This document shows, one piece after another, positions 9,173 to 19,718 of a stretch of DNA of 19,718 bases. The notes beneath the pieces are model-generated. The model ran no database searches, was not told where the DNA came from, and saw only the letters and a list, made by a program, of their open reading frames with translations. The position numbers and the translations under genes are program-made. The first letter of the stretch is position 1. Each line of letters starts with the position of its first letter. The stretch lies in contig JABXJU010000069.1 of NCBI GenBank assembly GCA_013375405.1, positions 1 through 19,718 of the forward strand, read 5' to 3'. The DNA comes from Candidatus Helarchaeota archaeon. Its GTDB lineage: Archaea; Asgardarchaeota; Lokiarchaeia; Helarchaeales; HEL-GB-A.

Positions 9173-9436
9173 TTAGAAGATATTAAGTTTAGTGGCTAAA
9201 TCTACAGCATTTGATTCAGGTGCAAGCCGTACATACGCCTTTTTGCGTCCATCGGGCAGTATCAAGGTATTCACCTTCACTACCCTGACTTCATACAGTT
9301 TTTGGACAGCCCATCTGATTAAATGCTTATTAGCAGTCCGACGTACAATAAAGGTCAGCTTATTCTCTCGTTCCAGCATTTCAAATGATGCTTCTGACAT
9401 TACTGGCTGAACAATTATAGAATGCGGTTCGACCAT
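9173..9436 (-). CDS. rpl23: Large ribosomal subunit protein uL23
   Basis: uL23 sits at the exit of the ribosomal tunnel, where it docks SRP and other nascent-chain factors. The conserved protein starts at the ATG ending at 9436 (MVEPHSIIVQPVMSEASFEM) and gives 87 residues, the usual archaeal length. The reading frame is open for 27 more codons to an upstream ATG at 9517, but that extension (rich in I, K, N) is not uL23-like and is probably leader. Landmarks are NKLTFIVRRTANKHLIRWAVQKLYEVRVVKVNTL and PDGRKKAYVRL. It is the first gene of a two-gene operon with uL2. uL3 and uL4, its usual upstream neighbours, are not in front of it. Confidence 0.95.
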   Translation of the reverse strand: MVEPHSIIVQPVMSEASFEMLERENKLTFIVRRTANKHLIRWAVQKLYEVRVVKVNTLILPDGRKKAYVRLAPESNAVDLATKLNIF

Positions 9437-9903
9437 TGATAGAGACCTTCTAATCTCGTTTTTTTCCTGAAATATTTCGTTTGTAAATTTAATACTTTTA
9501 TTAATAATCACAATCAAAATTGATTAATTAAATTTTATGAAAGTATCATTTCCTTAAAAATTTTTAACAGATCAATTTTTTCTTCTTCATCAATTAATAA
9601 ACAGCGAAAGATATGCTAACTACCTAAAATTAGCACAAATTTAATCCCCTAAAACTAAAATAGAAAGTATTTAGGCGGTGATTATCACCGCCCTTTAAAT
9701 AGAGGAAATCGAGATAGGTATTATTAAAGAGGTTTTGTTTTGGTTTATTATCGATACCATACAATACCCAAAAGCTCGCTAAAGAACTATCCAGCCCGAA
9801 GGTATTCATAAAGACCATTAGCCTATGAAAACGCATCAATAAACGGGCTTATTATCTATGCCATGCATTAGCTGGATATTTTTCTTTGAGCTCTTGAGCC
9901 ATA
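9437..9903. other. Gene-poor stretch between uL23 and the RAMP operon
   Basis: This 467-base stretch must hold the uL23-uL2 promoter and the end of the RAMP operon. It has no ORF I trust. A 69-codon minus-strand frame (9630-9839) has no family features. A 16-codon minus-strand ORF (MAQELKEKYPANAWHR, 9852-9902) starts one base after the stop of the 231-aa protein gene. Two stops separate it from the 69-codon frame, with which it is in phase, so this could be a decayed gene. TATCCAGC (9788-9795) pairs with GCTGGATA (9871-9878). An 18-base imperfect direct repeat (15 of 18 identical) lies at 9742-9759 and 9846-9863. A structured RNA is the alternative. Confidence 0.4.
9674..9692. repeat. Perfect GC-rich palindrome
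   Basis: GGCGGTGAT-T-ATCACCGCC is a 9-base perfect inverted repeat around one base, GC-rich inside AT-rich DNA. It could be the stem of a terminator or leader RNA for the flanking minus-strand transcripts, or a dimeric protein-binding site. CCTTTAAATAG follows directly at 9692-9702. On the minus strand its complement (CTATTTAAAGG) is TATA-like and lies upstream of uL23, about 260 bases from its start. Confidence 0.5.
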
Positions 9904-10599
9904 TTAAAATTTAATAAATTGGAAGAAATCTTCGATAGCTGCCAGTGCTGTGGTCCAACTCCCGATAGTGGTTAGTAATTCGTCAAAAATCTTGTGATCA
10001 CCTCCAAAACTTAATTTTCTGCGACACTCCCAGGAAGTATAGAACTTTGAGTAGACTTTTGTCATTCCCTCCTTCTGTTGAGGAAGAATTGACCAAATTC
10101 GAGCTTCATCCTGATAAATAATTTGGAAGGGGCTTTCGACAGGGAAATTTTCGCAGAGATACAAATCTTTTAACTGATATCCATTCTTTAAATTATAATA
10201 AAGCGCACAGGACAACAAAATGTGATATTTAAGTGAGGTATAGGGGAAAGATCGAGCTTCAGAATAGAGATTCAATAATTTAGAATTCACAATGGCTTTA
10301 TGTAACTGTTTTGCATCTGATTCCTCAAAAAATTTTGCCGCTTCCAAGCGATGTTGACTAATTTGGCTACGCGGTTGCTTAAAGTTACGTTCCTGAAAGA
10401 TGAGTGATTTTCTATGAAGTTCCTTTTCAAATTTCTTCCTTAAAAAATTTCGACTAATCCAAGCGGCGGTTGCATCCGCTTTTTGGGCAATTGTATCTAG
10501 AAGCGCATCTTTATGACGTGGTGCTCCTGCAATCTGAATTTTATGCATATCATGACGCAAAATCTGTAAAATCTCTTTTTCAGTGATCATAATTTTCAT
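9904..10599 (-). CDS. Unknown third gene of the Cas7/Cas5-like operon
   Basis: I do not recognise this 231-residue protein. It is mostly helical and polar with no signal peptide or membrane segment. The N-terminal half is basic (RKKFEKELHRKS around residue 55; KQPRSQ further on). The second half has a compact conserved-looking core: FPYTSLKYHILLSCALYYNL (about 117-136), YLCENFPVESPF, YQDEARIWSIL and a C-terminal helix with TIGSWTTALAAIEDFF. No nuclease triad is obvious; YQDEARIW could hold acidic ligands, but this is guesswork. The gene starts 3 bases after the Cas5-like stop, so translation is probably coupled. ATG at 10590 is an alternative start. Position suggests a small effector subunit (Cas11-like) or an accessory nuclease; neither is shown. 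Confidence 0.7.
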   Translation of the reverse strand: MKIMITEKEILQILRHDMHKIQIAGAPRHKDALLDTIAQKADATAAWISRNFLRKKFEKELHRKSLIFQERNFKQPRSQISQHRLEAAKFFEESDAKQLHKAIVNSKLLNLYSEARSFPYTSLKYHILLSCALYYNLKNGYQLKDLYLCENFPVESPFQIIYQDEARIWSILPQQKEGMTKVYSKFYTSWECRRKLSFGGDHKIFDELLTTIGSWTTALAAIEDFFQFIKF

Positions 10600-10602
10600 C
10601 CA

Positions 10603-11295
10603 TTAATTATTTTTCCAATCATGAACAATATATTCCCCGAGACCGAGTTTTCCAAGTGCAGCCTTCCTTAATATCCCTTTTTTCGCTATGCTTTGTATAT
10701 TTTTCCCGTTCCTTATTCGAAAAAACTGTCCTGGTGCAATTACATTGACGACATTTACATTATTATGATTCCAAATCTCCACCTGCTTGTGTCTACAATC
10801 ATAAAGCTCTACAAATGACGGAAGATATATTGCAGGAGAAATTAGCGTTAGATGTGAGGCTTTTTTTGGATAATCCAATTCATCAAGATTAATCTCGATG
10901 TGATCTTGGAGAGAGACGATTCCAAATCCAACATTCCGCATACCTCCGAGTTGAAGCAATTCTATATTCTTAATAATTTTGATGAAATTTTCTGGTGGAT
11001 TAATTATATCGAAAGTGACAAATTGAGGGAGAAAAAAGCACCTATAAGCTTTTTTTTGTTGTATTTTATCCCACCAGATTTCAAAATATGGACGTAAAAA
11101 ATATTTTCTGGTTCGAAGTAAAAAAAAGTCATTATAAGATTGGGATTTAGTAAGCTTTCCCTTTGCAGTAAATATTCCTATTGAAGAATTCACTTGTAAA
11201 GATAATGCATGTCGAAGCGCATTTCCCGAAATATACTGGGGCGAACCTGCATATTCTGACTCGAATTTAAAGAGAATTCGAATTATTTTTGACAT
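10603..11295 (-). CDS. Cas5-like RAMP protein
   Basis: The 230-residue protein looks like a RAMP (RRM-fold) subunit of the Cas5 group. It opens with a beta-strand, IIRILFKFES, then YISGNALRHAL (21-31), where RAMP proteins have their first helix. The mid-protein glycine-rich loop LGGMRNVGFG (116-125) resembles that of Csm4/Csc1-type proteins. A second half (about 145-230) ends in a further glycine-rich KAALGKLGLGEYIVHDW, as expected for a second RRM-like unit. In known complexes Cas5 caps the 5' end of crRNA next to Cas7. A Cas6-like RNase is the main alternative, but I see no convincing catalytic histidine. The ATG is preceded by GGTGGA and lies 26 bases after the Cas7-like stop. The RAMP call is firmer than the Cas5 call. 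Confidence 0.7.
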   Translation of the reverse strand: MSKIIRILFKFESEYAGSPQYISGNALRHALSLQVNSSIGIFTAKGKLTKSQSYNDFFLLRTRKYFLRPYFEIWWDKIQQKKAYRCFFLPQFVTFDIINPPENFIKIIKNIELLQLGGMRNVGFGIVSLQDHIEINLDELDYPKKASHLTLISPAIYLPSFVELYDCRHKQVEIWNHNNVNVVNVIAPGQFFRIRNGKNIQSIAKKGILRKAALGKLGLGEYIVHDWKNN

Positions 11296-11321
11296 ATGTA
11301 TGTATCCACCACTTTAGAATC

Positions 11322-12248
11322 TTATGAATCCTTCTCTTCTTTCTCAATGATTGGAAATTTCTCCTTCTCCTTTTCTATTATTTTCTGAAATTTCTTCTCA
11401 AGATCCTTGGCGACTTCCTTCTCTAATTTGAACTGAATCTTGAAGCCTTTGAGATTTTCTTCTTCTAATTCAAGCGCTATATTTTCATTTTCCAATAAGC
11501 TCGCATTTTTCTGCTTTTTCTTTTTCCTTTTCGGCTCTAACAAGAGAATATTGGCTCGCCCATACCCTGAAGTTCTCATACCGCCAAGTAAGTAGTCAAA
11601 TTTTTCATTTTGTACCATAGTATTCAGAAAATTAAGTGTGTTCAGCAAAACAACCTCTTGATCTGGAGTAGAATTTCGTAAAATTAATTTCAAAGGTGCC
11701 TCGATCGCAACCCCTGAAATATGTTCTACTGTCATATATACTTGGTGGCTTTCGCTTTGGCAACGGGGACTGCTATTAATCACCTCAAGCCGACCCCTTC
11801 CCACAGTTCCAAAAGCCCGATTAATATTTCTTGTGGCATTTGAATTCCCTGAGATTGTCGGATAGAAATATACAGATTTCGTCATTAAATTAGCAGGCTT
11901 ATCAAGATCTCCAAACATATGATAAAGTAAACACCCCCCATTATTGGCGCACTCACCTCTTGAATGATACCCCAAAGCTAGATCCTTCTTGAAATACTCT
12001 TTATTGCGATCACCTGTAATACTTATTTTCGATAATGGATGACACACGCTTATTCCGTGGCTAATCAAAAGTTTTGCCATCGCATGTCTTATCCAACCTT
12101 TGATCGTATGTCCACCAATTCTTCCAATCTTCGTAAATGGGGAGACCTTTTTTCTATCCCTCTCATTCTTAGGATGTGTTATCATCACCAAATTGTTTGC
12201 TCTGGTAGTTACTGATTCCGCTAAGAAGACCGTATCAAATATTTTCAT
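11322..12248 (-). CDS. cas7: Cas7-like RAMP protein (Csc2-like) with charged tail
   Basis: The 308-residue protein shows Cas7 backbone features: an early strand, KIGRIGGHTIKGWIRHAMAKLL (40-61) as the substrate-loop/helix region, a cysteine-containing ECANNGGCLLYHMFGD (99-114) recalling the C/LFG segment of RAMP proteins, and the C-terminal glycine-rich loop GGMRTSGYGR (222-231). Cas7 subunits form the filament that holds the guide RNA. Csc2 of type I-D is the closest type I can suggest, by motif impression only. After residue 235 comes a tail of about 70 residues made of Lys/Glu runs, probably helical or disordered and unusual for Cas7. It is the first gene of a three-gene operon, with GGAG (complement of 12261-12264) upstream of the ATG. 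It reads divergently from the helicase-Cas1 gene. Confidence 0.78.
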   Translation of the reverse strand: MKIFDTVFLAESVTTRANNLVMITHPKNERDRKKVSPFTKIGRIGGHTIKGWIRHAMAKLLISHGISVCHPLSKISITGDRNKEYFKKDLALGYHSRGECANNGGCLLYHMFGDLDKPANLMTKSVYFYPTISGNSNATRNINRAFGTVGRGRLEVINSSPRCQSESHQVYMTVEHISGVAIEAPLKLILRNSTPDQEVVLLNTLNFLNTMVQNEKFDYLLGGMRTSGYGRANILLLEPKRKKKKQKNASLLENENIALELEEENLKGFKIQFKLEKEVAKDLEKKFQKIIEKEKEKFPIIEKEEKDS

Positions 12249-12552
12249 CTTTCTTCATCACTCCAAAAATTCTTTCTAAAAGCACTATTTAACCTCATAT
12301 CAAATTTTTTCATTTTTATCCACTTCAACTTTTTTGTTAAAATGATTATATTATTCTTAAATACTTTTCTCCATTATCCTATATAAACTCATCATAAACT
12401 GGCTTCTTTTCTAGCCCGACATCTTTAAATCCCTCCTAATTCTACATTTCTCGATCCTAATATAAAGCATAAATAATTTATACCTCAATCTATTTGAATC
12501 TTTATAAGATAATCTTTCAATAGAATCCCTAGAACTTTAAAAGTGATAATTG
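12249..12552. promoter_or_regulatory. Divergent promoter region of the Cas-like locus
   Basis: This AT-rich spacer separates the RAMP operon from the helicase-Cas1 gene. For the plus strand, TTTATAAG at 12501-12508 is a TATA candidate, about 45 bases before the ATG, and AGTGAT (12542-12547) is a weak Shine-Dalgarno. For the minus strand, GGAG (complement of 12261-12264) is a good Shine-Dalgarno. TATATAAA around 12380-12387 is TATA-like and close to symmetric, so it could serve either direction. I looked for CRISPR repeats, long palindromes and tRNA-like folds here and found none. Confidence 0.5.
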
Positions 12553-15500
12553 ATGACTAAAGTTTGGCAGGAGGTGATTCAGCATCCGGACTGGACGAAA
12601 ACAGATATCCCACTGCGATATGGAAGCTTCTATGGATATTTAGGGCGGTATGGAAAATATAAAAGGAGCTTTGATGTATCAAACTTATATGGTTTCCAAG
12701 TAGATGGAGCACGAATTATTTTTAGTGGGGGAAGTGTTTTATTGATCGCAAATACTGGGGGAGGGAAAACGAATGTTGCCTTTGCCGCCTTATTTGATTC
12801 CTTAGTCCAACAAAAGATTGGAGTATACCTTGTGCCGACAACTGCACTATTAAGCCAGAAAAAGAAACAGATTGAGAAATTTTTTGGGAACATCGAAATC
12901 GAAAGTAGTGATATAGGAATTAGGAGCGCTGTTCTGGTTCCAATTCTAGTTAAATTCGATGAGAAAGAGGTTGGGCAAAATGAGGCGGATATCCTCCTGA
13001 CGGCAACTGGGGAGAACACTATCACCGAAATATGCTATAGAGTGAAGAGGACGGAACATGAAGTACTGGATATTTTACGAAAATATCATAAGATCGGTTG
13101 GGTTAAGCTTAAAAAGCTGACTGTCAAAGTGATTTCGGTGTCTGGGGAGAACCACCCCCGAAAGAAGGATTTGGAGCGTTATCGGAAGCGTTTAATCATT
13201 ATTGCTACCTATGAAGCATTTCGTGCCTTCTTATTCCAAATACAAGGACGTCATTACTTCAAAACTAAGAAACCATTTGGAACGGTCGTGGTAGATGAGA
13301 CGCATAGAATTAAGGACCAAGAGCGCGGATGGAAACTAGAGACTTTACTTTACAAATTGCGGGAAGAATTTAAGTGCAAACTCTGCCTTCTTAGTGCCTC
13401 ATTTGATATAAAATCGGCGCAAGATTGGGCCGAACGTTTGGATTGCGAATTGTTATACTGTAAGGAGGAGCGGACATTCGCCTACCATGAAATTTTAAAG
13501 AAATTTCCCCCGTTCCCTCCAGATAAGGATGAGGCGAAAAAGGCTCGAAAGGAAAAGGTAGGACACGTCGTGGACATTTGTCAAACAATTGCAGAAGAGG
13601 CCGTAACGCCGCAAGGGGAAGTTAATCCCGTGAAAGTGCTTATCTTCTGCCACTCGCGCCCACAAACTTATGCTATTCATAGAGCACTCAATAGGGTGGT
13701 CAAACAAAAGGATTATCTTGGAGAAAAATTTTATATTGAAGTGGATTACATCCATGCCGGACGCTCTCTAGATGCACGGGAGAAGGTAATGTCATTGTTT
13801 GAAAAACAGAGGGGAATCCAGTTCCTCTGCTGTTCCCCGCTTCTCGAGGTCGGTGTGGATGTTAATAATATTGAGCATATTATAATAACAGATCCAGAAC
13901 TTTATTCTCCAGCCCAATTAGAGCAAATGTGCGGGCGGTCCCGCGAAGAAGTTCCGAACGTGTATTTTCTCATATCAGAGGAAATGCGTTACGAGCTGTA
14001 TGAGGAGAAAATCATCGTGGACCCAGATCCCCGTGAATCATGGGGAAAAGGAGAACTTAAAGGATTCCGCTTAGCTAATGACCCAGTCATCAGTCAGATC
14101 ACGGTAAAGGGGCTTAAACTTAAAGAACTTGAACATACCGTGAAAAAATACAACGTAAGACTGCATACTAGGCTAGCGCGTCATAATCTTAACCAAGTAC
14201 TGAAACAGCTCATATTGGAAGAACTTTATGCTCATCAACGCACTAAAGCGGAGCTAGAAGAAAGTTTGGAGCGATTTGAAGTTCCGTATCGTATTATTAA
14301 TCTTCTAAAGTACTTAGAGGGAAAAATGTTTCTTCGGAAACACAAAGGATATTATGCATTGACACATCTTGGACGGACGGTAGTCGAAATGGGGTTGAAT
14401 CCAGGAGTTGCGGCGAGGATGCTCCACTTTTTCCAACGGCATGGGCTACACACGCCTGACTTTCAAACAAAATATAGGCAAAAGCTAGGAGAACTTATTG
14501 TTTATACTATTACCCCAAAACCAGGTGAAGAGGTCGGGTACTACGATCCTAAATGGCTTGCTGAGAAGCGGCGAAATATCCGTGCCTTCATGGAGGAAAT
14601 AGACATCAGCGGTGTGAAGAACCGAAAAGCTTTGCAATCTATTATTCTGCCATGTGCGGCGAAAAATTTTCTTTCTGAGGGAGATGCCAACGCTTATATG
14701 AAGACCGCTATCTGGCTTGCCATAAGTATGTACGCTGTCTGGAAGGCGTACAAAGCTCATCTTCAGACGGATGGTGAAATTGCGACTGTGCCACCTCCTT
14801 CTGGCATTACTCAACGTAATAACGCAATGTACAAACGATTAATTAAAGTAGTTCATTGCTATCAGGACCCTGATGCGCAGTGGCAGTGGAAACCTGCGCG
14901 CCGATCTTGGCGTAAGGTCCCGCAGAAATCCATCTATGCGGCCCCTGTACATGGAGTTCTCCAAAAGGTGGGTGAGAAGGGTGCCACGATTGAAGAAATT
15001 CAATCCAAATTGCGTGAAGTCATGCCCGAAGCTGATACACCTCTCAAGTTCTCACGGAAAATGATTCACGCGGTTTTGAACTCTATATTAAAAGATGAGG
15101 TTAGCAAGATTGCCGATTATGATAGTGAGGGTACTCGTCCTCCCGACCGTTATTGGTTGAAGGAATTCACTCCCGAAGTATCCTTCGATGAGTGCGGGAC
15201 TTGTGAGCAGTTCCGCTGGGCTCCGCAAGATCGCCCTCAAGGGTATAGGGGATGTGGGGAATGTAAATTGTATAAAAAATGGATTCGTCGGAGGCATCCA
15301 GCATGCATGTCCTATAAGCGCAAAATCCTCAACATGGCATTCCTTCACGACCTTCAGCGGGATGCCAATGATAAGGTACGCTGTCCGCGTTGTGGGGAAT
15401 CCGACACTATGCTCATTCCGACCTTCGAGCGTGCATCCGTTTGTAACAATTCTCAGTGTGAAGCCCTCGTGTTGCGAGCGCGCCAAGCGCGGTATGTTCT

Positions 15501-17430
15501 AAAGGGAAATGTTCTTATCCCCGATCATCGAATTTTGAAGACGGACAAATATAAATATATCAAGAAGCATGAGCGGATTCGGAACATCTACTTGAAGTAT
15601 GGTGAAACACTACACTTAGTTACGAAAGGTTCTGGCATTCCCGTATTCACAATTGAGGGACGTGGGTGGGAGCGCAACTTCGTCGACCAAGTAGAATATG
15701 TTTATCTGGCAGGAGGGTCTTTGACTATGGACCCTGAAAGCCTGAGAATCTACGGAGTTAAAGTCGAACCAGTACCAAAGGAGAAAATTGCCGCGGATCA
15801 GCAACGCTATATGAAAGAGAGGCGGCTCCGACAACTTCTCGAACAGCATGGGCTGGATCTCTACCAGCGGGCAAAGTTAAGAAAGGCATGCGATCTAGTA
15901 AAGGCAAAAATCCAGTCGAATATCTTATTCTGCCTCCAAATTGCTGATACACGCATGCAAAAATTAAGTAAAATTCTGGATTCCTCTCCGCCTAATGAAG
16001 TCGGGGTGGAGTACCTATGGGATAAGCGGAAGTGTCCTGACTGGTTGCGTCCCCTACGACAACAGTTAATAAATCTAAATAAAGTTCGTGATATTATTAT
16101 TCAACAGCTCGACCACATGTACTTCTGCCACCAAATTCTACAAAAACAAGTTGATGAGCGTAAATACTTGCTAGAGTTATTAATTAGTGAAGTTGTAGCG
16201 GATGATGAAACGGGTGATGATGCTCTGGATGATGAAAAAAACGATGACAAATTGCGCTCCAAATTGAATAAGAACCTCCACCAAATGTTCTACCTACTTC
16301 CACAAATTATACAAAAAGAGCAACAGAAAATCCAAATCTCACCGAACCTTAACCCAGGTCGGATTCTCAACAAGCTCCGCAGTCATGAGGGCGATGCCGA
16401 GCGAGGAGTATGGGAACTTTTAAAGCAGGCACTTCCGAAAAAATTTCATTTTGTATCGCGTCAAATTGACCGCTTCGTGCGGACAGACCTCTATTGGGGA
16501 GCTAAGGCCCTTGATCCATATAACGCCGCCTTGAACTATATGTATTATTTATTAAAGGGTAGAGTTCAACTGGCCTTACAGAGAGCAGGATTTTCTTTCT
16601 ATTACCCAGGCCCTGGATTGATCCATCAACGGGATACCGTATATAGTCCCCGTACCTTCGAAAATAAGCGTAATCAAGAAATTATTTATGATGTGATGGA
16701 TACATACCGTCCAGTGTTCCGTTATTATCTATTATGTGCGTTCCAACCATCAGTTCTCACTCAGGAGGAACCTTCTGAATTGAAGAGTTGGCTTGAACAA
16801 CAGCAATTCTCTATTCAAGACTTCTACTCGGGCATAGATGAAAATGAGGATCGCGTGTATTACCCCAATCCTACTACTCGTAAAGTGTTGGATCATTTCT
16901 ATAATTTGATTTGTCAACATACTTATAGATATAACATCGATGGAAAACTGGAATCTTTAACACTAGAGGAAATTATGGATGCTGAAGCACAATTTTTCGC
17001 CAAATTCTTACAAGAACCAGAAAAGATTATATATCTCCCATTTAGCGCATTCAATTTTCCTCTTCTTCTCGATCCAAGAGTATCCTGCTATATAAAGATG
17101 GAACATATTCTCAGCTCCCACGATCTTACTAAGCTTCCAGCTCTACCACCATCAACTACTGAAGTGAAACCTGAAAAAGAGATAATCACAATCGAGACAT
17201 TTAAGCTGGATTCGCAACTTACAGACATTACCTTTTTTAAGGAATATATCAAGAACACCTTTGCTGAAGAATATGTTGGGATTTTGGTAGATAAAGAAGT
17301 TGATACCCTCTACAAACTTGCCCAAGTCGATCCAAACGCGCTAATACGTCTGGGCATACCTGCCGATACAGCGCAGGATCTCGTGGGAACAGCTCAAGAG
17401 TTTTGTAAATTTAAAAATGTGTTCCTTTAA
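12553..17430 (+). CDS. cas1: Ski2/Hel308-like helicase fused to Cas1 integrase
   Basis: A single 1625-residue frame joins two enzymes. Residues about 40-500 are an SF2 helicase: TGGGKT (68-73), DETH (248-251), LSAS near 283, FCHSR (365-369) and QMCGRSRE (458-465). A winged helix (about 550-612, ending in LGRTVV) and a ratchet-like helical region follow, as in Hel308. Another winged helix lies near 795-860. Then come a Cys cluster (C881, C884, C901, C904) and a zinc ribbon (C944, C947, C964, C969). Residues about 975-1076 look like the Cas1 beta-domain (VEYVYLAGGSLTMDPESLRI) and 1095-1440 like the Cas1 helical domain: E1279 (RSHEGDAERG), H1358 (LIHQRD), D1380 and D1383 (IYDVMD), aligning with E141, H208, D218 and D221 of E. 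coli Cas1. The tail (about 1575-1620) is helix-hairpin-helix-like. The ATG at 12553 is preferred over an upstream TTG. Confidence 0.88.
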   Translation: MTKVWQEVIQHPDWTKTDIPLRYGSFYGYLGRYGKYKRSFDVSNLYGFQVDGARIIFSGGSVLLIANTGGGKTNVAFAALFDSLVQQKIGVYLVPTTALLSQKKKQIEKFFGNIEIESSDIGIRSAVLVPILVKFDEKEVGQNEADILLTATGENTITEICYRVKRTEHEVLDILRKYHKIGWVKLKKLTVKVISVSGENHPRKKDLERYRKRLIIIATYEAFRAFLFQIQGRHYFKTKKPFGTVVVDETHRIKDQERGWKLETLLYKLREEFKCKLCLLSASFDIKSAQDWAERLDCELLYCKEERTFAYHEILKKFPPFPPDKDEAKKARKEKVGHVVDICQTIAEEAVTPQGEVNPVKVLIFCHSRPQTYAIHRALNRVVKQKDYLGEKFYIEVDYIHAGRSLDAREKVMSLFEKQRGIQFLCCSPLLEVGVDVNNIEHIIITDPELYSPAQLEQMCGRSREEVPNVYFLISEEMRYELYEEKIIVDPDPRESWGKGELKGFRLANDPVISQITVKGLKLKELEHTVKKYNVRLHTRLARHNLNQVLKQLILEELYAHQRTKAELEESLERFEVPYRIINLLKYLEGKMFLRKHKGYYALTHLGRTVVEMGLNPGVAARMLHFFQRHGLHTPDFQTKYRQKLGELIVYTITPKPGEEVGYYDPKWLAEKRRNIRAFMEEIDISGVKNRKALQSIILPCAAKNFLSEGDANAYMKTAIWLAISMYAVWKAYKAHLQTDGEIATVPPPSGITQRNNAMYKRLIKVVHCYQDPDAQWQWKPARRSWRKVPQKSIYAAPVHGVLQKVGEKGATIEEIQSKLREVMPEADTPLKFSRKMIHAVLNSILKDEVSKIADYDSEGTRPPDRYWLKEFTPEVSFDECGTCEQFRWAPQDRPQGYRGCGECKLYKKWIRRRHPACMSYKRKILNMAFLHDLQRDANDKVRCPRCGESDTMLIPTFERASVCNNSQCEALVLRARQARYVLKGNVLIPDHRILKTDKYKYIKKHERIRNIYLKYGETLHLVTKGSGIPVFTIEGRGWERNFVDQVEYVYLAGGSLTMDPESLRIYGVKVEPVPKEKIAADQQRYMKERRLRQLLEQHGLDLYQRAKLRKACDLVKAKIQSNILFCLQIADTRMQKLSKILDSSPPNEVGVEYLWDKRKCPDWLRPLRQQLINLNKVRDIIIQQLDHMYFCHQILQKQVDERKYLLELLISEVVADDETGDDALDDEKNDDKLRSKLNKNLHQMFYLLPQIIQKEQQKIQISPNLNPGRILNKLRSHEGDAERGVWELLKQALPKKFHFVSRQIDRFVRTDLYWGAKALDPYNAALNYMYYLLKGRVQLALQRAGFSFYYPGPGLIHQRDTVYSPRTFENKRNQEIIYDVMDTYRPVFRYYLLCAFQPSVLTQEEPSELKSWLEQQQFSIQDFYSGIDENEDRVYYPNPTTRKVLDHFYNLICQHTYRYNIDGKLESLTLEEIMDAEAQFFAKFLQEPEKIIYLPFSAFNFPLLLDPRVSCYIKMEHILSSHDLTKLPALPPSTTEVKPEKEIITIETFKLDSQLTDITFFKEYIKNTFAEEYVGILVDKEVDTLYKLAQVDPNALIRLGIPADTAQDLVGTAQEFCKFKNVFL

Positions 17431-17447
17431 AATTTTTTCTAGTTTTT
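17431..17447 (+). terminator. Oligo-T terminator after helicase-Cas1
   Basis: Two T-runs (TTTTTT and TTTTT) start right after the stop codon at 17428-17430, a typical archaeal intrinsic terminator. It lies in a 61-base convergent gap with the M28 peptidase gene. Confidence 0.45.
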
Positions 17448-17491
17448 ACGGGTTATGAAGGCTCACCCCAAGTTATTCCAACGAAACTGTG

Positions 17492-18910: not shown

Positions 18911-19718
18911 TCAAAAACCTTTCTTAACAGATTTCGCTTTCGATGGAGCTGGTCGTTCTTCTTGTCTTACAATTCGAATTATTACGCCTGTTACTATTAT
19001 ACCACATACTAGTTCGAGTATTAAGAGCAGCCTCCCAATCAGGGGATCATTTGGATCGAGCGGATCTGAGCCCTTAGCGATTTCTTCGCTATCGGAAAGC
19101 CCATCCCCATCCGTATCGCGGGTAGTCGGATTCGTCCCATAGGTCCATACCTCAAGCCCATCCGCAAGGCCGTCCCCGTCCGTATCCGGATTGAAGGCAT
19201 CGGATCCATGCCCGTAGATTTCAGCGGCATTCGTTAGCCCGTCGCTATCATAATCCGTATCATTGGCTAACAAGTACACCGTCACATTTTGGGCGGTCCC
19301 ATTATTGCCAACGGCATCGACGGCTCGATAAAAGATGACATGCGGACCATCTGAAATCCCTGCAAGAGAAAAACTGGACGCCGTCAGCCACTCGCCGGTA
19401 TCAACTTTATATTGATAGTGGCTAATCCCTGCTCCGCCAACATCATTCCCTCCCCATATTTCGAATAACGTGTCCTCTAACACGAAATTCGGGGGAAATG
19501 GAAAGGAAACATTTAGTTCACACGCCCCAGGGCTGAGGCCATCTAGGACGGTCTTTTTATAGAAGATATCCCAATCCGTGCCCGCGCCTTTGTAATCAGT
19601 CGCATCCTCCCACGCGACGTGCACGTGTCCAGATCCATCCACCGCGATGGTGGGACTAAAAGACCACGAGGTCTCGGTGGTTATCTTTTTCATGGAAGTC
19701 CAATTCCCGGTGGTGGTA
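18911..19718 (-). CDS. Cell-surface protein with thrombospondin type-3 repeats (5' end beyond window)
   Basis: The frame is open to the right edge; the codons before the ATG at 19693 continue in frame as TTTGNWTS. That ATG is therefore probably internal, and only the C-terminal 269 or so residues are visible. The order is: a beta-propeller-like repeat (SFSPTIAVDGSGHVHVAWED), an Ig-like/fibronectin-like domain ending in RAVDAVGNNG, and three calcium-binding thrombospondin type-3 units (DTDYDSDGLTNAAE, DTDGDGLADGLE, DTDGDGLSDSEE). After these come one hydrophobic helix (LLLILELVCGIIVTGVIIRI) and a basic cytosolic tail (RQEERPAPSKAKSVKKGF). This is a secreted, membrane-anchored archaeal surface protein, probably for adhesion or cell-envelope structure. 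Locally the gene is GC-rich: 19141-19200 counts 36 of 60 G+C. Confidence 0.88.
   Translation of the reverse strand, partial: TTTGNWTSMKKITTETSWSFSPTIAVDGSGHVHVAWEDATDYKGAGTDWDIFYKKTVLDGLSPGACELNVSFPFPPNFVLEDTLFEIWGGNDVGGAGISHYQYKVDTGEWLTASSFSLAGISDGPHVIFYRAVDAVGNNGTAQNVTVYLLANDTDYDSDGLTNAAEIYGHGSDAFNPDTDGDGLADGLEVWTYGTNPTTRDTDGDGLSDSEEIAKGSDPLDPNDPLIGRLLLILELVCGIIVTGVIIRIVRQEERPAPSKAKSVKKGF

Follow-up and report, generated by a model that had tools for sequence, protein, structure and literature searches.

What use does an archaeon make of a Cas1 that is tied to a helicase? Cas1 is the memory-writing integrase of clustered regularly interspaced short palindromic repeats (CRISPR) and the transposase of casposons, and the question is raised by a stretch of 19,718 nucleotides (nt) of Candidatus Helarchaeota archaeon (contig JABXJU010000069.1, assembly GCA_013375405.1; the whole stretch is hereafter the window), in which a single open reading frame joins a helicase, two cysteine clusters and a Cas1 domain beside a three-gene RAMP-type operon. 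The alignments described here indicate that this Cas1 domain retains all four catalytic residues, and the same fusion recurs in other Asgard genomes. In our tentative reading, to which we would give slightly less than an even chance, the fusion and the operon constitute an array-less, CRISPR-derived module resembling the ARAMP systems of Asgard archaea, whose helicase would unwind foreign DNA, which Cas1 would then nick or join.

Helicase and Cas1 domains in one reading frame

The first-pass annotation of this DNA, made from the letters alone, had described a single 1625-residue frame holding both a helicase and a Cas1, with the helicase motifs TGGGKT, DETH and QMCGRSRE, and this description is borne out by the frame itself (Table 1) and by Pfam matches to DEAD and Cas_Cas1. 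An ATG start at position 12553 yields 1,625 amino acids (aa) and an alternative TTG start at 12550 yields 1,626; helicase motifs and catalytic residues are counted here from the ATG. The helicase makes up the first third of the protein (DEAD 1.8e-21, Helicase_C 6.5e-14), and each of the three motifs occurs once, at residues 68, 248 and 458. The Ski2/Hel308-like character proposed earlier is supported as a type: the best NCBIfam model is PRK02362 (ATP-dependent DNA helicase; 2.5e-15, far under the model's own cut-off), and the best PDB matches by sequence search are Mtr4/Dob1 (2.5e-6) and Hel308 (3.8e-5). The full-length equivalog level of PRK02362/Hel308 is missed, with 55.8 bits against the 887 required, and on these scores we regard the window helicase as a superfamily 2 (SF2) relative of Hel308 and not as Hel308 itself. 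Between helicase and Cas1 stand the two cysteine clusters, whose eight cysteines are invariant in all eight rows of alignment A1 and which would be expected to bind zinc or another metal.

The first-pass annotation had proposed looking for a significant Cas1 match in the C-terminal region, and such a match is found. Pfam Cas_Cas1 (PF01867) recognizes residues 1254-1389 (TTG numbering) at 7.1e-8, with 32.4 bits against a cut-off of 22.3, the window protein by itself aligning to model positions 128-240, and the Cas1 models of PADLOC (4.4e-13) and NCBIfam (1.7e-12) also match, the NCBIfam score of 47.1 lying under that model's stricter equivalog cut-off of 71.7. A family hidden Markov model (HMM), which placed both the helicase core and the Cas1 boundaries and had the window itself in its training set, gives the domain a span of about residues 985-1502 (TTG numbering). 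As a single query against PDB sequences the Cas1 part reaches 4n06 at no better than 0.37, and the profile A2, built from the Cas1 region of seven fusions, finds exclusively Cas1 chains at E <= 0.01. The best of these is the A. fulgidus Cas1 4n06 (1e-10, nearly the full chain), followed by 6opm, the Cas6-RT-Cas1 chain 7kft, where RT is reverse transcriptase, and 7cr6; the alignment to residues 20-343 of 4n06, a comparison of sequence profiles only, covers both the N-terminal beta domain and the helical C-terminal domain. A relative from genome G082 covers positions 14-258 of the 283 of the Cas1 profile. We judge the evidence for Cas1 identity to be moderate from the single sequence and strong from the profile.

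E1279, H1358 and D1380 are invariant in the 12 rows of alignment A6, the position of D1383 is occupied by D or E in wider sequence sets, and the catalytic set E/H/D/(D or E) is intact in 36 of 37 aligned Cas1 domains, the remaining row (L066) being cut off at the E. The first-pass claim that these four residues lie in the contexts expected for Cas1 accordingly stands, and, judged from these alignments, the fusion carries a Cas1 domain with its full set of four catalytic residues. In a tree of the 37 domains, which carries a long-branch warning for L066, L070 and L100, the rows of the window and G082 type form a supported clade (99/98) and those of the G177 and G178 type a separate one (100/99), and two more supported clades are made up of large Cas1 proteins from other genomes (100/100) and of nine stand-alone Asgard Cas1 (100/99).

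Helicase and Cas1 share one frame in 16 proteins, of which Asgard genomes, counting that of the window, supply 12: the window, five in G082, five in G177, one in G178, and P0005-P0008. The count rests on 26 sources read, the window among them. The last four come from a protein search, their domains being those of precomputed Pfam (P0006 lists the helicase only, and its Cas1 residues are seen in the alignment). Uncounted are P0003 (named Cas1 by NCBI, from Helarchaeota, a predicted protein without a helicase), L102, whose frame is cut by a contig end, and a 782-aa frame at G177 contig 4:420284 (L083) that was read in part. The same domain order, which the first-pass annotation had suggested seeking in Asgard genomes, is therefore present in three of them besides the window. 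Since the window is a metagenome contig, one might suspect an artefact of assembly or annotation that joined two genes; but 15 more proteins have the same domain order in a single frame, and the cysteine clusters between the domains are conserved in the eight rows of A1. These independent copies refute that explanation, which we hold to be next to impossible.

The wider distribution is patchy. The window protein matches 104 of 227 Asgard genomes at E <= 1e-5 (best two candidates per genome), and among the matches listed nearly all are to the helicase only, one (G166) is to Cas1 only, and G082 alone matched both parts; the A2 profile gives 38 matches in 18 of the 227 genomes, stand-alone Cas1 included. 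When 5.8 billion proteins were searched with window residues 1100-1560, the window itself was the sole match, and a protein search from a G082 relative returned seven matches without the window among them, so that such protein searches miss distant members. Viral contigs held no relatives of the Cas7-like protein described below or of the fusion's C-terminal 859 residues, the genome contigs searched with those 859 residues yielded none, and plasmid records gave no match to the fusion.

At six loci of G056, G060, G061 and G062, large Cas1-containing frames of 1,190-1,378 aa adjoin a separate helicase frame (L087, where the helicase match is weak, L088, L090, L091, L093 and L101); the 644-aa frame of L101 and the 1,190-aa frame of L091 run to a contig end, and L089, L092, L094 and L100 are incomplete or unclear. 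In L088, L090, L091, L093 and L101 the large unfused Cas1 beside a helicase represents a related two-gene arrangement, and the two helicases that were scanned (L088, L091) each include an MrfA zinc-binding domain and end in a metallophosphoesterase-like region.

Four of the G082 fusions are giant forms of 2,090-2,766 aa (L031/L032, L033, L098 and L099, the last reaching a contig end), with a C-terminal extension of about 800-1,400 aa in which the DHH-phosphoesterase-like motifs HxDxDG and W[FY]DHH and a RecA-like-looking stretch can be seen by eye; a profile of the DHH-like region matched no PDB chain at E <= 0.1. Genes for PolB and TnpB lie directly upstream of one giant form (L031 12169-16348), and a 2,543-aa open frame with HEAT-type repeats by reading lies near another (L033 502-8133). 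The 1,439-aa fusion on G082 contig 1 (L055 4418-8737) ends in leucine-rich repeats, and leucine-rich-repeat-like genes adjoin two G177 fusion loci (L035 3816-6161; L036 10447-15070).

Table 1. Features of the fusion, the adjoining operon and the block that contains them (positions of the window).
Feature	Position	Strand	Basis or remark
Helicase–Cys clusters–Cas1 fusion protein	12553..17430	+	one open reading frame, 1,625 aa
SF2 (Ski2/Hel308-type) helicase core	12670..13962	+	Pfam DEAD/Helicase_C; family HMM residues 41-471, TTG numbering
Two Cys clusters, zinc-ribbon-like	15193..15459	+	C881 C884 C904 C918; C944 C947 C964 C969
Cas1 domain, N-terminal and C-terminal parts with insertion	15502..17055	+	Pfam and profile comparisons
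Predicted catalytic E1279 codon	16387..16389	+	alignments
Predicted catalytic H1358 codon	16624..16626	+	alignments
Predicted catalytic D1380 codon	16690..16692	+	alignments
Predicted catalytic D1383 codon	16699..16701	+	alignments; E in some relatives
Cas7-like RAMP protein, 308 aa	11322..12248	-	Csm3 model 4e-4; Pfam RAMPs 0.044
Second operon protein, 230 aa	10603..11295	-	50% identical homologue, same place in L055
Third operon protein, 231 aa	9904..10599	-	precomputed Pfam PF26506; 45% homologue, same place in L055
Divergent intergenic region, operon and fusion	12249..12549	.	unstructured on + strand, z -0.18
Candidate structured RNA just downstream of operon	9735..9905	-	z -3.5, 0/200 shuffles as stable
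Perfect palindrome, terminator-like hairpin	9674..9692	-	by eye
8,058-bp block	9434..17491	.	absent between M28 peptidase and rpl23 in Hel_GB_A (L001)
16-nt AT-rich direct repeat near both block ends	left 9550..9565, right 17422-17437	+	15/16 match

Arrays, RAMP genes and structured RNAs at the fusion loci

One purpose that the first-pass annotation had offered for coupling unwinding to integration was the generation of spacers, and this suggestion did not find support. A repeat screen of the loci (exact 18-mers in at least three copies, which a degenerate array could escape; loci only, not whole genomes) found no CRISPR array at the fusion loci read, and an ordinary CRISPR locus is rejected on that ground. 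Only L014, L065, L066 and L068 were flagged, none of them a fusion locus; L065, L066 and L068 hold a stand-alone Cas1, so the screen is able to see arrays. Six genomes were checked for Cas2 at E <= 1e-3, with a control that matched in 7 of 14 genomes: Cas2 is present in G177 and G060 and was not found in G082, G178, G001 or G062. The fusion might nonetheless serve adaptation at ordinary arrays located elsewhere in the genome, a proposal that its complete Cas1 residues and the Cas2 of the fusion-holding G177 would favor. The failure to find Cas2 in the fusion genomes G082 and G178, the lack of an array at the fusion loci and the placement of the fusion Cas1 rows and the nine stand-alone Asgard rows in separate supported clades all speak against it, and we consider it very unlikely.

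Divergent from the fusion stands the operon of three minus-strand genes, which the first-pass annotation had overlooked, as it had the precedent of ARAMP. Homologues of its 308-aa protein match Pfam RAMPs at 5.7e-7 and 2.8e-9 and Csm3 at 1.2e-7 and 5e-11, and A5, the profile of its family, has Csm3 as its best PDB match (0.0058); the Cas7-like assignment is weak from the window protein alone and becomes clearer through the homologues. A glycine-rich loop, recognized by eye only, suggests that the 230-aa protein may be a Cas5-like RAMP, and its homologue in L055 has a weak Cas5_IIId score (0.015). The family of the 231-aa protein comprises 108 proteins at E <= 1e-3, window and G082 copies included, which are mostly from Helarchaeota where an organism is named.

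This operon is not confined to the window. On G082 contig 1 (L055) homologues of all three, with identities of 45-50%, follow one another as they do in the window; the 1,439-aa fusion is some 4 kb away, and a single further gene separates it from them. All seven loci read in G177 and G178 present a Cas1 frame, then a Cas7-like gene, then a 269-275-aa protein with a C-terminus like that of the third protein. The Cas1 frame is helicase-fused in six of these seven; the other (L102) is cut by a contig end. P0057, a relative of the third protein, and the fusion P0008 are each assigned to a contig of 99,288 bp, presumably the same one given its length. Direct repeats of 46 nt, 89% identical, lie on both sides of the G082 three-gene operon (L055 12687-12732, 15053-15098).

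The linkage bears on a further explanation, in which the fusion is a cellular enzyme of recombination or repair and its RAMP neighbours are a separate system. The four giant G082 forms, without an adjacent RAMP gene and with their long, seemingly DHH-phosphoesterase-like extension, speak for such an enzyme. However, the A2 profile reaches only 18 of 227 Asgard genomes even with stand-alone Cas1 counted, RAMP genes accompany Cas1 in the window, in L055 and in the seven G177 and G178 loci, and the DHH-like profile found no counterpart in the PDB; we consider this explanation distinctly unlikely.

Each of the seven G177 and G178 loci (L035, L036, L037, L095-L097, L102) also contains two to four copies of a noncoding element some 120 nt long. 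An alignment of 19 copies, to which L083 contributes one, supports 25 pairs with 95.4% of cells paired, and 13 pairs have changes on both sides; sliding the partners cuts pairing to <=54%, and 0 of 500 shuffles reach the pairing or the covariation, a test that is somewhat overstated, since it was from these same, mutually related copies that the structure was drawn. A covarying structured RNA is thus present in the RAMP loci of these genomes. Rfam had no family at gathering score for the window and three loci. A model of the RNA has matches in 5 of the 227 Asgard genomes, neither Hel_GB_A nor G082 being one of these (at most the best 15 candidates per genome). Each of the 15 matches listed in G177 has one of that genome's 11 RAMP genes within 2 kb, and 8 of the 15 listed in G178 have a RAMP gene within 3 kb. 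Other copies in G175-G179 are followed by unrelated 3' sequence, in a few cases with an apparent gene start within a few bases, and G176 has two tandem copies about 30-42 nt apart, a spacer-like distance (L109 1182-1481; L112 1343-1626).

Just downstream of the window operon a different candidate was noted; it was considered as a copy of the G177 and G178 RNA and rejected in that capacity, there being no match. It has a 47-nt match in the sequence downstream of an operon remnant in Hel_GB_A (L054), which 0 of 500 shuffles equal; the L054 counterpart folds as ordinary sequence (z -0.02), and the two-row pair of window and L054 has no compensatory base pair. Two similar motifs inside the region are not claimed, as 4 of 500 shuffles equal them.

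Gain or loss of the block

The window is readily compared with the Helarchaeota genome Hel_GB_A, to which its rpl2 protein is 84% identical and in which ten window genes are matched in order. There the M28 peptidase is followed directly by rpl23, and in the window the fusion and the three minus-strand genes stand in between; as the operon and the fusion separate genes that are otherwise adjacent, they constitute a discrete gain of about 8.1 kb here or a loss there. The exact ends of the block cannot be placed at the divergence of the two genomes. Beyond the M28 peptidase, the window gene at 18911-19693 has no counterpart in Hel_GB_A. That genome has two copies of the operon, one cut by a contig end and the other an internally deleted remnant (L054 3194-3733) in which the beginning of the Cas7-like gene runs straight into the final part of the 231-aa gene. 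In L053 (1229-2050) of the same genome a 273-aa gene overlaps the start of the Cas7-like gene and on visual inspection resembles a PD-(D/E)xK nuclease, without Pfam support.

A second case is a 10.56-kb block of G177 that is missing from G178 between flanks 93.9 and 96.1% identical; it contains a fusion, a Cas7-like gene, a third-protein relative, RNAs and three further genes, and neither inverted ends nor a target duplication was found at it. Mobilisation of DNA was the other purpose that the first-pass annotation had named, and these blocks invite the view that the module is a casposon-like mobile element in which Cas1 would act as the integrase, the helicase would aid excision or insertion, and the RAMP and RNA part would aim or repress the process. 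Casposon Cas1 is an established transposase; five fusions occur within one genome, two of which are 81% identical over 8.1 kb of DNA; both blocks are absent from a relative; and in four comparisons of paralogous units (L096/L097, L036/L102, L035/L036, L095/L096) the shared DNA stops no more than about 10 nt from the RNA 3' end. In addition, the 16-nt repeat near both ends of the window block, with 15 matches that 0 of 40 shuffles reach, hints weakly at duplication of a target or attachment site. The longer form of the repeat has a third and less well matching copy, which falls within a gene at 10436.

Against a mobile element, no inverted repeats above shuffles were found at either block, an AT-rich 25-nt pair in the window included, and no PolB was found in the window block. 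The empty-site boundary of the G177 block lies about 46 nt past the RNA end, for which reason we do not claim that an element stops exactly where the RNA does, and the block includes three other genes. Defence islands are likewise gained and lost, and a defence island accounts for the G177 block no worse than a transposon does. We therefore hold a casposon-like element to be rather unlikely, and return to the ARAMP-like module as the reading preferred here.

Relation to known systems and a proposed function

The founding paper on ARAMP is reportedly that of Makarova et al. (2020, CRISPR J 3:156). In the portions available to us, later accounts describe ARAMPs as Asgard CRISPR derivatives, distantly related to HRAMP, most of which include "a distinct form" of Cas1 (PMC8730458), and treat HRAMP and ARAMP alike as array-less and derived from type III (PMC12669027). 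The window resembles ARAMP in its Asgard host, its Cas7-like RAMP with a type III-like affinity (Csm3), its lack of an array at the locus, and the presence of Cas1 in a distinct form. It differs in that those portions do not mention a helicase-Cas1 fusion for ARAMP (PMC8730458, PMC12669027), and in that an HNH or PD-(D/E)xK nuclease, typical of ARAMP but not universal (PMC8730458), was not recognized in the window block by Pfam, PADLOC or NCBIfam scans. HRAMP shares the array-less state and diverged RAMP proteins, but is haloarchaeal and has nucleases, and Cas1 is named for ARAMP and not for HRAMP in what we have of that source (PMC8730458).

Other comparisons are less close. Casposons likewise employ Cas1 outside CRISPR, and some families have helicase genes or fusions to helix-turn-helix or zinc-binding domains (PMC9939771); in contrast, the window block has neither inverted repeats nor PolB, and the direct repeat that flanks it is weak at best. 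RT-Cas1, Cas6-RT-Cas1 (7kft) and Cas4/1 fusions also join Cas1 to a nucleic-acid enzyme, but the partner in the window is an SF2 helicase and no array accompanies it at the loci read. In type IV CRISPR, too, a helicase (DinG in IV-A) accompanies a small operon of RAMP genes (PMC8730458); the helicase here is a different one, no Csf1 match exists in the window, and, while the type IV Cas7 model scores 1.5e-5 for the G177 homologue of the Cas7-like protein, Csm3 beats Csf2 for both the L035 and L055 homologues. The parts of PMC8730458, PMC12669027, PMC9939771 and PMC12770985 available to us, and the titles and abstracts searched, contained no mention of a helicase-Cas1 fusion. The founding paper may already describe it, and ARAMP is the closest known kind.

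The argument as to function builds on the domains in one frame, the catalytic residues, the recurrence in Asgard genomes, the linkage to RAMP genes in several loci, the absence of arrays at the loci read and the presence or absence of the blocks. SF2 helicases translocate on nucleic acid at the expense of ATP, Cas1 nicks and joins DNA ends, and Cas7-type RAMPs bind RNA. Helicase and Cas1 in one polypeptide beside a RAMP operon suggest an RNA- or protein-aimed opening of DNA followed by cutting or joining by Cas1. In the ARAMP-like reading, the Cas7-like, second and third proteins would form one complex, which would hold a structured RNA encoded at the locus (by covariation in the related loci, and as a candidate in the window) and would bring the helicase-Cas1 enzyme to its DNA; the helicase would unwind the target, most plausibly mobile DNA, and Cas1 would nick or join what has been opened, the purpose being defence rather than the spread of the module itself. 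A more specific version, in which RAMP complexes use dispersed structured RNAs of the loci in place of array transcripts, the unrelated 3' flanks serve as fixed guides, and the helicase-Cas1 integrase is the effector that cuts or inserts, we regard as unlikely.

Several observations weigh against the ARAMP-like reading. As regards the fusion, each step past the domain assignments is inferred, and among the genomes with verified fusions G177 does have Cas2. The linkage to RAMP genes is also incomplete: the single RAMP match of G082 is on contig 1, away from its four giant fusions, only 6 of the 11 RAMP genes of G177 have an adjacent Cas1 domain, and Hel_GB_A (G001) has the Cas7-like gene without a match to the fusion. 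Of the operon's proteins, the 230-aa protein and its profile have no significant Pfam, PADLOC or PDB match, and the profile of the 231-aa protein has none in the PDB (best 0.5). The RNA presents comparable difficulties, as 7 of the 15 matches listed in G178 lie away from any RAMP match, and G175, G176 and G179 carry copies without a Cas1-profile match, so that the association of the RNA extends beyond the fusion. The G177 and G178 RNA has no match in the window, whose own RNA is a candidate resting on one fold and one alignment.

A Cas1 family that is tied to a helicase, array-less at the loci read and Cas2-less in two of the three fusion genomes checked, would point to a third use of Cas1 beside memory writing and transposition. 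With the covarying RNA beside the RAMP genes, it can be tested directly which molecules array-less RAMP systems bind.

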